Of a stretch of 34,574 nucleotides of DNA, positions 30,014 to 34,574 are shown in pieces. Position 1 is the first letter of the stretch. Every line of letters starts with the position of its first letter. The notes under the pieces were generated by a model. That model saw only the letters and a program-made list of their open reading frames with translations, was not told the DNA's origin and searched no databases. Source of the DNA: a virus; IMG/VR virus record IMGVR_UViG_3300037069_000583, positions 1-34,574 of that record; one strand, 5' to 3'. A program made the translations under genes and the position numbers.

Positions 30014-30774
30014 GCGCCGGGATTCGCCGCTACAACCGCGGCAAAGGCCACAGCTACACCATCGACGGCCAGCCCGCCATCGGCGTCACCACGGCGCTCG
30101 ACGTGCTCGGCAAGCCCGCGCTCATCAACTGGGCCGCGAACATCACAGCCGGGTACGCCGTCGACCACTGGGACGAGCTCGGCGAGCTGCCGATCTCCAA
30201 GCGGCTCGACGTGCTCAAGGGCGCACGCTACGCCGACGTCGACCAGGCGGCGAGGCGCGGCACCGAGGTTCACAAGCTCGGCGAAGCACTCGTCACCGGC
30301 GCCGAGGTTGAGATACCGGAAGCGCTCGCCGGGCACGCCGAGTCCTACGTCCGCTTCCTCGACGAGTGGGAGCCGAAGCCGCTCGTCGTCGAAGGTGTCG
30401 TCGCGCACCGTAAGTGGCGCTACTGCGGCACATCCGACCTGTTCGCGGAGATGGCCGGCGAACGCTGGGTGCTCGACATCAAGACGTCGCGTTCCGGCAT
30501 CTACCCCGAGACGGCGCTCCAGTTGGCCGCCTACCGCTGGGCCGAGGCCTACCTCGACGAGAACGGCGACGAACAGCAGGTCGCCGACCTCGGCATCACC
30601 CGGGCCGCTGCGATCCACGTCCGCGCTGATGCCTACGACCTGATTCCGCTCGAGACGGGCGAGGACGTGTTCAAGGACTTCCTGCACATCTTGTGGTGCG
30701 CGCGCATGAAGGACCGCATGGGCTCCTGGCGCGGCGACGCCCTCACTCCACCGACGAAAGAGGACGTGGCATGA
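30010..30774 (+). CDS. RecB/Cas4-like PD-(D/E)XK exonuclease
   Basis: The start GTG 30010 overlaps the previous stop; GTG 30001 is also in frame. The 254-aa product has the PD-(D/E)XK nuclease order: GTEVHKLGE (H88), E128 in VVEGVV, GTSDLF (D143), WVLDIKTS (D156, K158) and QLAAYRWAE (Q171, Y175). It sits one gene upstream of the RecT-like protein, the usual exonuclease/annealing pair for recombination and replication of phage DNA. The two genes overlap by ATGA and are presumably translated together. Confidence 0.85.
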   Translation: MSAGIRRYNRGKGHSYTIDGQPAIGVTTALDVLGKPALINWAANITAGYAVDHWDELGELPISKRLDVLKGARYADVDQAARRGTEVHKLGEALVTGAEVEIPEALAGHAESYVRFLDEWEPKPLVVEGVVAHRKWRYCGTSDLFAEMAGERWVLDIKTSRSGIYPETALQLAAYRWAEAYLDENGDEQQVADLGITRAAAIHVRADAYDLIPLETGEDVFKDFLHILWCARMKDRMGSWRGDALTPPTKEDVA

Positions 30775-31724
30775 CCGAGGTTGCGATCCGCACCGAGGCT
30801 GAGGTCTCGATGGTGACGCCACTGACCGTGTGGGCGAACTCCGCGCGGCAGGCCGCGACCGTCGCGGTTTCCCTTGCTCGCACGCCATTCGTGCCGCAGT
30901 CGCTTCGTGACCGCGATGAGGGCGTCACGGCAGCGAACATCACGGCGGCGATCCTGACCGGGCAGGAGATCGGCCTTGAGCCGATGGCTGCGCTCAGGTC
31001 GATCGACCTCATCCAAGGCACACCAGCGCTCCGCGCAGTCGCACTGCGGGCGGTCGTTCTCGCGGCCGGTCACGACATGTGGGTGGCCGAGTCGACACAG
31101 ACCCGGGCCGTCGTGCGCGGCATCCGCAAGGGCTCGTCGCACGAGCAGGAGTCGGTGTGGACGTTGGATCGGGCTCGTGGGCTCGGCCTGCTGAACAAGG
31201 ACAACTGGAAGAAGCAGCCCGGCGCCATGCTCGTCGCTCGAGCGACAGGTGAGTGCGCGCGCCTCGTCGCCGCCGATGCGCTGCTCGGCGTGCCCTACGC
31301 GGCTGAGGAGCTCGACGACGGGATCGAGACGGGCGAGCCTGAGCCGGCGCGTCCCAAGGCCCGCACGGCGCAGCGTCGCAGCGCGCAGGCCCCAGCCGTT
31401 GTGCGTCCAGATGCCCCTGTTGCGGAGCCCGACCCCGAGCCAGATTTCGACGAGCCTGACGGCGAGAGGGGCGACGAACCCGACGCGGCCGAGCCCGAGA
31501 ACATCTCCATCACCGACGCGCAACAGCGCAAGTTCCGCGCCTTGCTCGCGGAGAACAACATCACTGAGCGACCGAAGATTATCGAACTCGTCAGCCGGAT
31601 CGTGCAGCGCGAGGTGGAGTCGAGCAAAGACCTCAGCAAGGACGAGGCGAGCGACGTCATTGAATCGCTCCAGACCGGCGCGTGGTCGCTGCTCATGCCG
31701 CACGCTGCGGAGCAGCCCACATGA
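30771..31724 (+). CDS. recT: RecT-like single-strand annealing protein
   Basis: ATG 30771 in an ATGA overlap; 317 aa. The conserved core lies in residues about 15-190: VTPLTVWANSARQAATVAVS, TPFVPQSLRDR, VTAANITAAILTGQEIGLEP, MAALRSIDLIQGTPALRAVA and a KQPGAMLVARATGECARLVA segment, which fit the actinophage RecT family. A long acidic/proline-rich linker (about 200-245) joins a C-terminal helical domain (SITDAQQRKFRALLAENNIT). The protein probably anneals single strands made by the upstream exonuclease. The C-terminal domain resembles a small helical interaction module. Confidence 0.85.
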   Translation: MTEVAIRTEAEVSMVTPLTVWANSARQAATVAVSLARTPFVPQSLRDRDEGVTAANITAAILTGQEIGLEPMAALRSIDLIQGTPALRAVALRAVVLAAGHDMWVAESTQTRAVVRGIRKGSSHEQESVWTLDRARGLGLLNKDNWKKQPGAMLVARATGECARLVAADALLGVPYAAEELDDGIETGEPEPARPKARTAQRRSAQAPAVVRPDAPVAEPDPEPDFDEPDGERGDEPDAAEPENISITDAQQRKFRALLAENNITERPKIIELVSRIVQREVESSKDLSKDEASDVIESLQTGAWSLLMPHAAEQPT

Positions 31725-32287
31725 GGCGCGCCGAAGCTGTCCTCCTCTCGTCCCTCACCTTCTGTGCGGGCCTGGCAATCGGCACGGCGATGCACAAGCC
31801 GCAACGGGCCACGCTCATCCCGCCGACGAACTACGCCCGCACTCCACCGACCGAGGCGAACCGCGACCTCACCAGACCAGCCGTGGCGGCGTCAAAGGGC
31901 CTTTCGCCCGTCGCTGACCTACCAGCGCCGGGACTTTCACCCCAAGGCATGATCCCTGCGGCTCCTCCATCGCCGCACGCCCTCGCGCCTGCGCCCGCCA
32001 CGGCTCCCACGTCCACTGCGCAGCCCGCGGGAAGGGGAAGCCCTACGGCTGCGCAGTGGGACATCTTGCGTCGCTGTGAATCGGGCGACCAGTACGGCAA
32101 TAAGGAGAACGTGCTCTATCGCGGGGCTTACCAGATTGGTTTCGTCGAGTGGCGGACCTACGGCGGCACTGGTTACGACCCCGCAGACGCATCGCCCGCC
32201 GAGCAGGACGCGGTCGCACTGCGGCTGTGGCAGGCGCGTGGCTGGGAACCGTGGGCGTCGTCGAGTGCCTGTAGTGGGCTGCGATGA
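31721..32287 (+). CDS. Rpf-like secreted transglycosylase
   Basis: A 188-aa protein, ATG 31721 in ATGA overlap with recT. Residues 7-24 form a signal anchor (VLLSSLTFCAGLAIGTAM). A Pro/Ala-rich linker (about 35-110) follows, then a transglycosylase-like domain of the resuscitation-promoting factor type: WDILRRCESGDQYG with the catalytic Glu at 120, GAYQIGFVEWRTYGG, and ARGWEPWASSSACSGLR. The expected cysteine pair (C119, C184) is present. Rpf proteins cleave peptidoglycan and wake dormant actinobacteria. It is located in the early operon, not the lysis cassette, which is striking. Confidence 0.85.
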   Translation: MRRAEAVLLSSLTFCAGLAIGTAMHKPQRATLIPPTNYARTPPTEANRDLTRPAVAASKGLSPVADLPAPGLSPQGMIPAAPPSPHALAPAPATAPTSTAQPAGRGSPTAAQWDILRRCESGDQYGNKENVLYRGAYQIGFVEWRTYGGTGYDPADASPAEQDAVALRLWQARGWEPWASSSACSGLR

Positions 32288-32679
32288 CCCGCGAATGGCG
32301 TCTCCCGCTGCCCTACACCGCGCCGCCCTTGTCTCTCAACGGGCGCGACCACTGGACTAAGCGCCACCGGCTCACCAGGCAGGTCATCGACGACGTGACG
32401 CTGCTCATCCACGCCCACAAGGTGCCCGCGTTGGACGAGGCCACGATCTGGCTCGAATGGACGCCGGCCGTCCGCAGGCAGCGCGACACGGACAACCTAG
32501 AGCCGACTCGCAAGGCCGGAATCGACGCGATTGTGCGCGCCGGAAGGCTCCCAAATGACACGCCGGAGTACGTGCGGAGGCCTGAAAATCGCATCCTTCC
32601 GGTCGGGAAACCGTCGCTTTTCCTCGTGATCCGCGACGGCTTCGACGCCGAACGGGTGCCCTGGAATGGGTGTGAGTGA
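32284..32679 (+). CDS. rusA: RusA-like Holliday junction resolvase
   Basis: ATG 32284 in ATGA overlap; 131 aa. RusA-type signatures: PPLSLNGRDHWTKRHRL near residue 14, RQRDTDNLEPTRKAGIDAIV (D68, D70, K77, D81) and an acidic D92 in NDTPEYV. It would cut four-way junctions formed by recombination. It follows exonuclease, RecT and Rpf-like genes, so the recombination set is complete. The ending is unrelated to the next gene, whose GTG follows the stop directly. Confidence 0.85.
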   Translation: MTREWRLPLPYTAPPLSLNGRDHWTKRHRLTRQVIDDVTLLIHAHKVPALDEATIWLEWTPAVRRQRDTDNLEPTRKAGIDAIVRAGRLPNDTPEYVRRPENRILPVGKPSLFLVIRDGFDAERVPWNGCE

Positions 32680-33030
32680 GTGCCACATCTCAAGCTCGAC
32701 GACGGATTCCCAGACCACCCGAAAGTATGGAGCTTGTCCGACGCTGCCTTCAGGCTTCACACATCCGGGCTCGCGTTCTGCAACCGGCTCCGCACGGACG
32801 GCTTCGTGCCGGCGGACCAAGTTGCGCGCCTCGTGCCCCATTTTAGGCGCAAAACACTGGACGAACTACTCGAATCCGACCGATGGGCGGCAGTTGGTGT
32901 CACCAGGGTCGTCTCCTACGAGATCCGCAACTACCTCGAATGGAACGACTCAGCCGAGGAGATCGAGAAGAAACGGCTGGAAGCGGAAGAGCGGCGGAGG
33001 AGGTATCGGGAACGCCATGCGAACGACTGA
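32680..33030 (+). CDS. DnaD-like replication protein, C-terminally disrupted
   Basis: GTG 32680 directly after the rusA stop. The first 90 residues are the typical N-terminal domain of phage replisome organizers: MPHLKLDDGFPDHPKVWSLS, DAAFRLHTSGLAFCNRLRTD, and VSYEIRNYLEWNDSAEEIEK. A basic helix (RLEAEERRRRYRERHAND) follows and the frame stops at TGA 33028-33030 after only 116 residues; relatives are usually two or more times longer. A +1 frame (33017-33169) carries on with a smooth Ser/Thr-rich tail, and frame 1 stays open after the TGA to 33504. So this may be a frameshifted, truncated or phase-variable gene. Confidence 0.7.
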   Translation: MPHLKLDDGFPDHPKVWSLSDAAFRLHTSGLAFCNRLRTDGFVPADQVARLVPHFRRKTLDELLESDRWAAVGVTRVVSYEIRNYLEWNDSAEEIEKKRLEAEERRRRYRERHAND

Positions 33031-33169
33031 CTTGGACGCGTTCTGGACGCGTTTCGTAGGACGCACACACGACGCGTCTACTCCACTCCACTCCACTCCA
33101 CTCCTTATAAGTACTTCTACTGTCCGTACACATTCATTCACCGCCGTTACGCGCGAAGGCCGTCGATGA
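33017..33169 (+). CDS. Possible C-terminal tail of the replication protein (50 aa, +1 frame)
   Basis: This frame reads MRTTDLDAFWTRFVGRTHDA, then STPLHSTPLLIST and RTHSFTAVTREGRR. Its stop overlaps the ATG of the next gene in ATGA, the pattern of true gene junctions here, while the upstream gene's own stop at 33030 has no such overlap. That suggests the +1 frame is the natural continuation of the DnaD-like gene. It could also be a short independent ORF (GGAGG at 32997-33001 is 15 bases upstream). A base error in the sequence is the other explanation. Confidence 0.45.
   Translation: MRTTDLDAFWTRFVGRTHDASTPLHSTPLLISTSTVRTHSFTAVTREGRR
33081..33104. repeat. Pentanucleotide repeat (CTCCA)4 plus CTCC
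   Basis: Four full copies of CTCCA and a fifth partial one (CTCC). A 5-bp unit changes the frame by slippage, and each frame encodes a cyclic permutation of L-H-S-T-P. It lies in the disputed C-terminal region of the DnaD-like gene. Confidence 0.85.
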
Positions 33170-33504
33170 TGAATGAATCGATCTTGTGGGAGAAGCGCTT
33201 CGCGGACCCGCTCGCCGTCATCCTCGGCCAACTCCGCACCGACTGGCAGATGCCCGGCATTATGGCCGCCCTCGCCGACCAGCGCCTACGTGCCAAAGCG
33301 CCGGCCACCGTCGTCCTCGCTGCCGTCCGTGCCGCATCCAACCCCAAGGTCCGCACCCCAGCCGTGATCCCCATGGAGGGCGAGCACTGGCTCGAGCAAG
33401 CGACCGCGCCGTTGACGCCGCCGAAGTACCGCGGCGAGTTCGCGGGCGATCCTGACGACATTCCCGCCTACCTGGCGTGGCTGAAAGGAGATGTGACTGC
33501 GTGA
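33166..33504 (+). CDS. Hypothetical early protein (112 aa)
   Basis: ATG 33166 overlaps the stop of the +1 tail (ATGA); ATG 33169 is also in frame. The product reads MMNESILWEKRFADPLAVIL, then GQLRTDWQMPGIMAALADQR, LRAKAPATVVLAAVRAASNP and ends [16 protein letters not shown]. Small helical proteins of this kind follow replisome-organizer genes in actinophages and might load helicase, but this is not established. The last codons overlap the DUF6745 gene by GTGA. Confidence 0.65.
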   Translation: MMNESILWEKRFADPLAVILGQLRTDWQMPGIMAALADQRLRAKAPATVVLAAVRAASNPKVRTPAVIPMEGEHWLEQATAPLTPPKYRGEFAGDPDDIPAYLAWLKGDVTA

Positions 33505-34574
33505 AGAGAATCACCGAACTGACCGAGGCGCAGAAGGCTCTGATGGGGCCGTGGGCCGATCAGTGGATTGAGCGGGGTCTGCGCTGCCGCCCGCTCGACG
33601 GGGCCGAGTGGGCGGCGTGGGAGGCGGCGGTTGGGCGTTGTTACGGGTTCGCCGGGTTGGCTGCGCCGCGGGTTGTGGTGCGGGTGCCGAATCCGCTGGT
33701 GGGGGCGTTGGCGTTCCCGATAGCGGCGTACCTGCTCCGTGGCCCGGTCGGTGGCGCGGTCGATGACGCGGTCTATGGCGCGGTCTATGGCGCGGTCTAT
33801 GGCGCGGTCGAGGGCGCGGTCGATGACGCGGTCTATGGCGCGGTCCGTGGCGCGGTCCGTGGCGCGGTCTATGGCGCGGTCTATGGCGCGGTCGAGGGCG
33901 CGGTCCGTGGCGCGGTCCGTGGCGCGGTCGATGGCGCGGTCTGTGGCGCGGTCGAGGGCGCGGTCGATGGCGCGGTCTATAGCGCGGTCGATGACGCGGT
34001 CTATGGCGCGGTCTATGGCGCGGTCCGTGGCGCGGTCGAGGGCGCGGTCGAGGGCGCGGTCCGTGGCGCGGTCGAGGGCGCGGTCTATGGCGCGGTCGAT
34101 AGCGCGGTCGATAGCGCGGTCTATGGCGCAGGGAAAGAAATCCAGGACACCATCCTGCGCCTGCACTACCACCGATTCGGCGGCCAGTTCTGGACCAACT
34201 GGAACGCCTACTGGATGTTCTTCCGCGAAATCGGCCTCGAACTCGACGGCGACACGTGGGCCCGCGCCGAGGCATACGCCGACACCACAACCGCAGGATG
34301 GTGGTGGCCGCACAGGGATTTCGTGATGGTCTGCGACCGGCCGACTGTGATCCGCCGCGAACAGGTCGGCGAACGCGGTTGGGGTTCCCACCGGCTACAC
34401 GCGGAGCACGGCCCGTCGATCTCCTGGGACGGCTGGGGGCTGTTCTATTGGCACGGGACGCAAATCCCGGCCGACCCGGACGAGATCAAGGGTTGGGACA
34501 CGGCCCGCATTTTGGGTGAGCGGAACGCGGAAACCCGCCGCGCGATGATCGAAATCGTCGGCTGGCCGAAGTTC
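33501..34574 (+). CDS. DUF6745 protein with tetrapeptide repeat, 3' end beyond the window
   Basis: GTG 33501 in a GTGA overlap, AAAGGAG upstream (33484-33490). The visible 358 residues have a helical N-terminus ([40 protein letters not shown]), then a P-rich strand ([20 protein letters not shown]), then about 32 G-A-V-X repeats (about residues 80-207). After that the DUF6745 hallmarks appear: [73 protein letters not shown] and [18 protein letters not shown]. Function is unknown to science. The frame has no stop before the window edge. The repeat is of variable length in relatives that I know. Confidence 0.85.
33738..34130 (+). repeat. Tandem 12-bp repeat, 32 full units, coding X-[GDS]-A-V
   Basis: 32 full 12-bp units run from 33738 to 34121, followed by TAT-GGCGCA (34122-34130). 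The constant part GGCGCGGTC is nearly invariant; the first codon of each unit is TAT, CGT, GAT, GAG, TGT or GGT (Y, R, D, E, C, G), and some units carry GAC or AGC in place of GGC. Variation is therefore in one codon, while the rest is kept uniform. Four of the six frames are open through the array (the third plus frame and one minus frame have stops), which explains long shadow ORFs here. Confidence 0.95.

Follow-up and report, generated by a model that had tools for sequence, protein, structure and literature searches.

A fast-reshuffling tetrapeptide array at the domain joint of phage DUF6745 genes, which adjoin a conserved partner gene

The window, i.e., the whole stretch of DNA analyzed here, is a 34,574-base virus record (IMG/VR IMGVR_UViG_3300037069_000583) whose end falls inside a plus-strand DUF6745 gene (33501..34574). 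This gene has a GTG start with AAAGGAG ahead of it and is incomplete, continuing past the window end. Its product begins with an N-terminal helical domain of 79 aa (33501..33737), which carries the family-conserved pattern W..GL.T.P..R......Y..AG...P......SPL and was modelled with a pLDDT of about 86-96. A tandem array of 32 units of 12 bp, encoding [YRDEGC][GDS]AV, follows on the same strand (33738..34121, with a partial unit to 34133), and an incomplete C-terminal domain with motifs including DGW....HG occupies the remainder (34131..34574). The part after the array matched PF20530 (DUF6745) at 59.3 bits (E 4.1e-16; gathering cut-off 27 bits) over positions 36-126 of the profile's 206, with the remainder of the domain off the contig; the family assignment made in an earlier, sequence-only reading of this DNA was thereby borne out. 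Upstream on the plus strand are genes for a short replication-initiation-like protein (phrog_2447; 32680..33030), a RusA-like resolvase (phrog_34; 32284..32679) and, in the same co-directional block, a RecT-like annealing protein (phrog_4171; 30693..31724). This context supports placing the gene among early or DNA-metabolism functions, as the sequence-only reading had done.

Several features of this block were recorded separately. An unusually placed gene with a transglycosylase-like domain (PF06737; 31682-32287) separates the RecT-like gene from the RusA-like one. The replication-initiation-like product is only 116 aa long, versus 295 in phrog_2447, and 3' of its gene is an (ACTCC)5 run (33080-33104), where another frame continues as a plausible linker; these are hints of a frameshift. 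An antisense open frame of 307 aa (33468-34391, minus strand) that crosses the array was not taken as a gene, since any frame through a stop-free 12-bp unit stays open.

Tandem Repeats Finder placed the array at 33740-34129, with 32.5 copies of period 12 and a score of 507; no other repeat in the window came close, the next best scoring 56. Unit-by-unit reading gave 32 complete in-frame units followed by the half unit YGAG, in agreement with the repeat number first reported. The claim that one codon only varies held in part. Codon 1 is the main site of change (TAT 10, CGT 7, GAT 7, GAG 6, GGT 1, TGT 1; i.e., Y10 R7 D7 E6 G1 C1), but codon 2 varies as well (GGC 26, GAC 3, AGC 3; G26 D3 S3), and unit 1 reads RGPV whereas residues 3-4 are AV in the other 31 of the 32 units. 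Save for GAG versus GAT, changes are confined to codon positions 1-2. Since the longest exact repeat within the array is 46 bp, its assembly was possible. The unit count rests on one metagenome assembly, and the exact number deserves less trust than the existence of the array because many related contigs stop within arrays: 29 of 80 in one set of related loci and 40 in the array scan described below (e.g., the viral contigs L075, L116, L260, L262, and L337). Short-read assemblies frequently cut array genes of this class, and metagenome assemblies probably contain too few of them.

With the C-terminal domain as query, searches returned 7, 61 and 80 loci, plus two annotated phages. Arrays occupy one and the same joint, that between the N-terminal domain (about 80 residues) and DUF6745, in more than 100 relatives from phages and prophages, and nearly all phage and prophage members of the family have an array there. 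The period is four residues in every relative, the constant pair is AV, QV, AT, QL, SV, SL, or NL, and the longest array has 76 units, the shortest only a few. Scanning by DNA pattern only, ignoring the flanks, gave 99 stretches, 87 of which had a DUF6745 N- or C-domain; therefore, the joint is the usual home of such arrays, although other sites occur too. Stretches with only one of the two domains are cut by contig ends, save L238 (IMGVR_UViG_649633091_000001), where an array frameshifted within the gene yields ...GGPARGPAPGPALGP; this frameshift is either a sequencing error or the mark of a broken copy. A QL-type array was also found in an unrelated protein (MCNFWSCLLTKDGKVLW...; L191:8983-10011 and L226:3-212, contig 3300050014_000410), a third array context besides DUF6745 and gp54 of mycobacteriophage Tweety, and the other exceptions were short or low-complexity look-alikes. 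The window itself is without a close relative, the best reaching 62% identity over 134 columns in the C-domain tree. Neighbors in related phages include integrase, helicase, RecE/RecT, exonuclease, and initiator genes, which is consistent with early expression of DUF6745 genes. A literature search found no mention of DUF6745, and we know of no function for this family or for the partner gene described next.

Clustering of neighboring genes revealed one that recurs, encoding about 100-150 residues with the motifs QGD, GHxH, HxEH, and PGxY (motif order, QGD...GHxH...HxEH...VxD); the sequence-only reading had missed both this partner and the breadth of the family. The N-domain, C-domain and partner profiles derive from loci found in the same analysis. 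In a six-frame profile search, every one of the 42 viral loci with both flanks had the partner next to DUF6745, either up- or downstream and nearly always within 1 kb. The reverse search, which used only partner sequence (an alignment of seven close rows), found DUF6745 adjacent in 76 of 80 loci, among them all 41 with both flanks; the other four were contig ends. An independent draw by Pfam family alone covered 198 Actinomycetes genomes, 16 of them with a DUF6745 match; the partner was present in 13 of the 14 loci that matched most of the domain, and weak or partial matches were without it. Nearly all partner copies end in [VI]xD (e.g., L074:5135-5458, L017:5019-5327, and L016:6604-7047), and 210 of 212 partner-profile hits have Asp as their very last residue, the ending being VAD in 144 of these (some loci counted twice). 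Such a fixed C-terminus suggests a recognized or modified tail. Searches of Pfam, NCBIfam, PADLOC, and PDB sequences returned no credible match to the partner. A PHROG family annotated as of unknown function, phrog_27831, matched 18 of 109 upstream neighbors and, judging from these counts, is most likely the partner gene. The six-frame profile search found no partner in the window, which ends inside the DUF6745 gene; since the partner lies downstream in near tree relatives (e.g., L086, L101, L013, and L014), that of the window phage is predicted just past the contig end.

In actinobacterial chromosomes, too, DUF6745 (PF20530) genes encode both the N- and the C-terminal domain of the phage copies and adjoin the same partner. 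Unlike the phage copies, one clade of these chromosomal copies (97% SH-aLRT) has a non-repetitive joint and no array; in its loci (L016-L054) DUF6745 is followed directly downstream by the partner. This clade is possibly domesticated and, as it keeps both genes, the basic function can work without an array.

To describe how arrays vary, we used the 81 arrays of at least 10 units. Base 1 of codon 1 was variable in 80 of these, base 2 of codon 1 in 49, and base 2 of codon 2 in 70, while each of the remaining nine unit positions, including all third positions, varied in 1 to 10 arrays. Counting codons seen twice or more, the arrays held 311 extra residue types versus 23 extra synonymous codon types. 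The synonymous share (23/334, versus about 27% expected of single changes) makes such variants about four times rarer than expected (binomial P about 6e-21, a guide only, as the arrays are related). The same side-chain classes arise through different codons: arrays whose first codon ends in G encode R, G, W, and some E, and those with C or T encode R, D, G, Y, S, and H. Core codons are uniform inside an array and different between arrays. L118 and L129, with flanking DNA 88.5% identical, have GAC/GCC at codon 2 in one and GAG/GCG in the other; therefore, the third base has swept the whole array while the acidic/Ala pair was kept. On the C-domain tree, in which many branches are weak, constant pair and array presence together change at least 38 times.

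Four Mycobacterium abscessus prophage alleles provide the closest comparison. Their flanks are identical over 990 bp (0-1 SNP), and they hold 46, 19, 62, and at least 20 units, the last being on a cut contig. Except for the first edge unit, all four draw on one set of six DNA units and no others (three first codons x two second codons), arranged in different orders, with zero synonymous variants. Repeat number and unit order thus differ between flank-identical alleles, the comparison that the sequence-only reading had proposed, and it follows that shuffling by recombination is fast and that diversity at residues 1-2 is maintained. A diversity-generating retroelement target was also considered, and the same six units reordered in four alleles fit shuffling better than fresh mutagenesis. 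Arrays expand, contract, and reshuffle at a pace well beyond that of the gene around them, with frame and unit grammar kept, and the variety at residues 1-2 is not neutral. Together, the uniform cores, the reshuffled alleles and the synonymous deficit support the earlier proposal of homogenization by recombination combined with selection at the variable codon.

The companion proposal, selection on one face of a repeated helix, was not supported. On an alpha-helix a 4-residue period drifts by 40 degrees per repeat, and at 100 degrees the hydrophobic moment drops from 0.22 over 18 residues to 0.07 over 36 and 0.03 over the array. AlphaFold gave pLDDT mostly >90 for the N-domain and the DUF6745 part and rendered the array as long helices at low confidence only (pLDDT 45-70 in the window and 37-79 in L035); the alignment for folding left out the annotated phage proteins L009 and L010. 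A fold search with the L035 model recognized no solved fold in the PDB (best E 0.64), its best VIA-align result (Z 3.6, rmsd 6.3 over 77 residues) was not usable, and in BFVD it matched a single phage fragment and the DUF6745 protein of Microcystis phage LMM01, nothing else. Glycine-zipper matches on the array (PF13436 and PF13441; 45 and 36 bits) appear to reflect the composition of GA-rich repeats, and are doubtful because most units are charged and the QL and SL relatives do not fit. Matches to microcin and FliH were likewise composition effects, and a membrane span is unlikely given the charge in most units. With the DUF6745 gene as query, PADLOC-DB 2023 returned only weak, repeat-driven matches and nothing credible outside the repeat.

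The closest known counterpart is Tweety gp54, reported in 2007 to have tetrapeptide repeats whose variation is restricted to first and second codon positions, a pattern 'consistent with selection for variation' (PMC2884959). Mutants of Tweety able to escape the Phrann gp29/gp30 defense map to gene 54 and have altered repeat numbers, and the authors' reading is that repeat number tunes the juxtaposition of the two ends of the protein; such counter-defense tuned by repeat number has been reported for Tweety only (review, PMC9262239). Tweety gp54, Che8 gp57, Taj gp58, and Wee gp57 resemble the DUF6745 arrays in having a 12-bp unit with two constant and two variable residues (X1 codons GGG/TGG/CGG/GAG/CAG, X2 codons AGC/TAC), constant third codon positions, and varying copy number (14-49) between near-identical flanks (PMC2884959). 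We counted 49, 31, 14, 19, and 27 units in Tweety, Taj, Wee, Melissauren88, and Che8, respectively, with a near-constant GCCGCA core; the Tweety figure includes one edge unit beyond the published 48. In contrast to DUF6745 genes, this group has AA as its constant part, no DUF6745, and no partner gene. Tweety gp54 had no Pfam hit, tblastn with it found mycobacteriophages only, and homology of its N-terminal flank to the DUF6745 profile was undetected with hhalign (probability 0.2). Judged by sequence comparison, then, the window gene is not in the Tweety gp54 family, yet it has the same build and mode of evolution. A more distant parallel is VR2 of bbp36 in Bordetella phage BMP-1, in which repeat number also differs between isolates and whose role is unknown, but this is a 24-bp element (19-bp repeat plus spacer) in another gene (PMC2884959). 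The defense-related role suggested in the sequence-only reading is plausible for DUF6745 by way of Tweety gp54 (PMC9262239).

Taken together, arrays that differ within identical flanks and a constant partner look like a length-tunable host-interaction system, probably one in an arms race with host defenses. More specifically, we tentatively favor, as quite possible, a two-gene early phage module in which the array sets inter-domain spacing or surface and can be retuned to changing host targets. The DUF6745 gene would be the larger half of this module and the gene for the small protein ending in VxD the other, and the two proteins presumably bind each other. Array length or surface is presumably of functional relevance: copy number and the Gly/Arg/aromatic/acidic mix would set spacing and surface between the two domains, and recombination would retune which host factor the DUF6745 protein engages. 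That the Tweety tuning model carries over to DUF6745 is our best inference by analogy, and the target would then presumably be host or prophage defense, likely a variable defense or toxin-antitoxin complex. The functional analogy may fail, because gp54 has no N-flank homology, no DUF6745, and no partner. Also weighing against the module reading are the low-confidence array model, the array-less chromosomal clade, the lack of a credible PADLOC match, and the absence of the partner from the window.

A somewhat less probable reading is that the module is itself a defense, exclusion, or toxin-antitoxin cassette whose array tunes recognition of incoming phages instead of suppressing host defense. 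Two genes in variable order, present in prophages and actinobacterial chromosomes, would suit such a cassette, but phages too carry the module, in early DNA-metabolism blocks, PADLOC was without a credible match, and a toxin-like family was not found. We consider it unlikely that the array is a neutral, self-expanding spacer, fed by slippage and recombination and tolerating any small or polar residue at positions 1-2. The low-confidence structure of the array, the acceptance of similar arrays by unrelated proteins (Tweety gp54 and L191) and the relatives without an array all agree with it; however, it predicts synonymous variation as well, contrary to the 23 versus 311 counted, and it leaves unexplained why L118 and L129 keep both residue classes while core and third bases sweep and why the same classes recur via different codons.

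It is very improbable that the repeated DNA itself is functional, as an iteron-like binding or recombination site. Such a role would explain the conserved synonymous bases, i.e., the third bases constant within each array, and would match the replication and recombination neighbors, including the initiator-like gene upstream in the window; but core DNA is wholly different between phages (GCGGTC, CAGCTC, AGCGTG, GCCACC, etc.) while the 4-residue grammar, the frame, and the residue classes are preserved. An assembly artefact or collapsed repeat might be suspected in a metagenome contig, particularly as so many related contigs end inside arrays. Arrays in annotated isolate records (prophiGD102-1, Tweety, Taj, Wee, and Che8) and in isolate genomes, together with the 46-bp longest exact repeat of the window array, make this scarcely credible.

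So far, one mycobacteriophage has been known to tune a protein rapidly through repeat number. The same design and the same unusual codon pattern are now seen in upward of 100 phages and prophages, joined there to other domains and accompanied by a partner gene that is strictly conserved. A curiosity thereby becomes a testable general mechanism, with a first handle on two protein families that lack a function. It is possible, though we put it forward with reserve, that DUF6745 and its partner constitute an undescribed, widespread two-gene phage-host conflict system, in which the recombination-driven array would serve as a recognition surface or as a ruler that can be adjusted, and the near-invariant C-terminal VxD of the partner as a recognized or modified tail. 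If so, phages would have converged on the principle of Tweety gp54 as a general means of fitting one protein to host targets that change.
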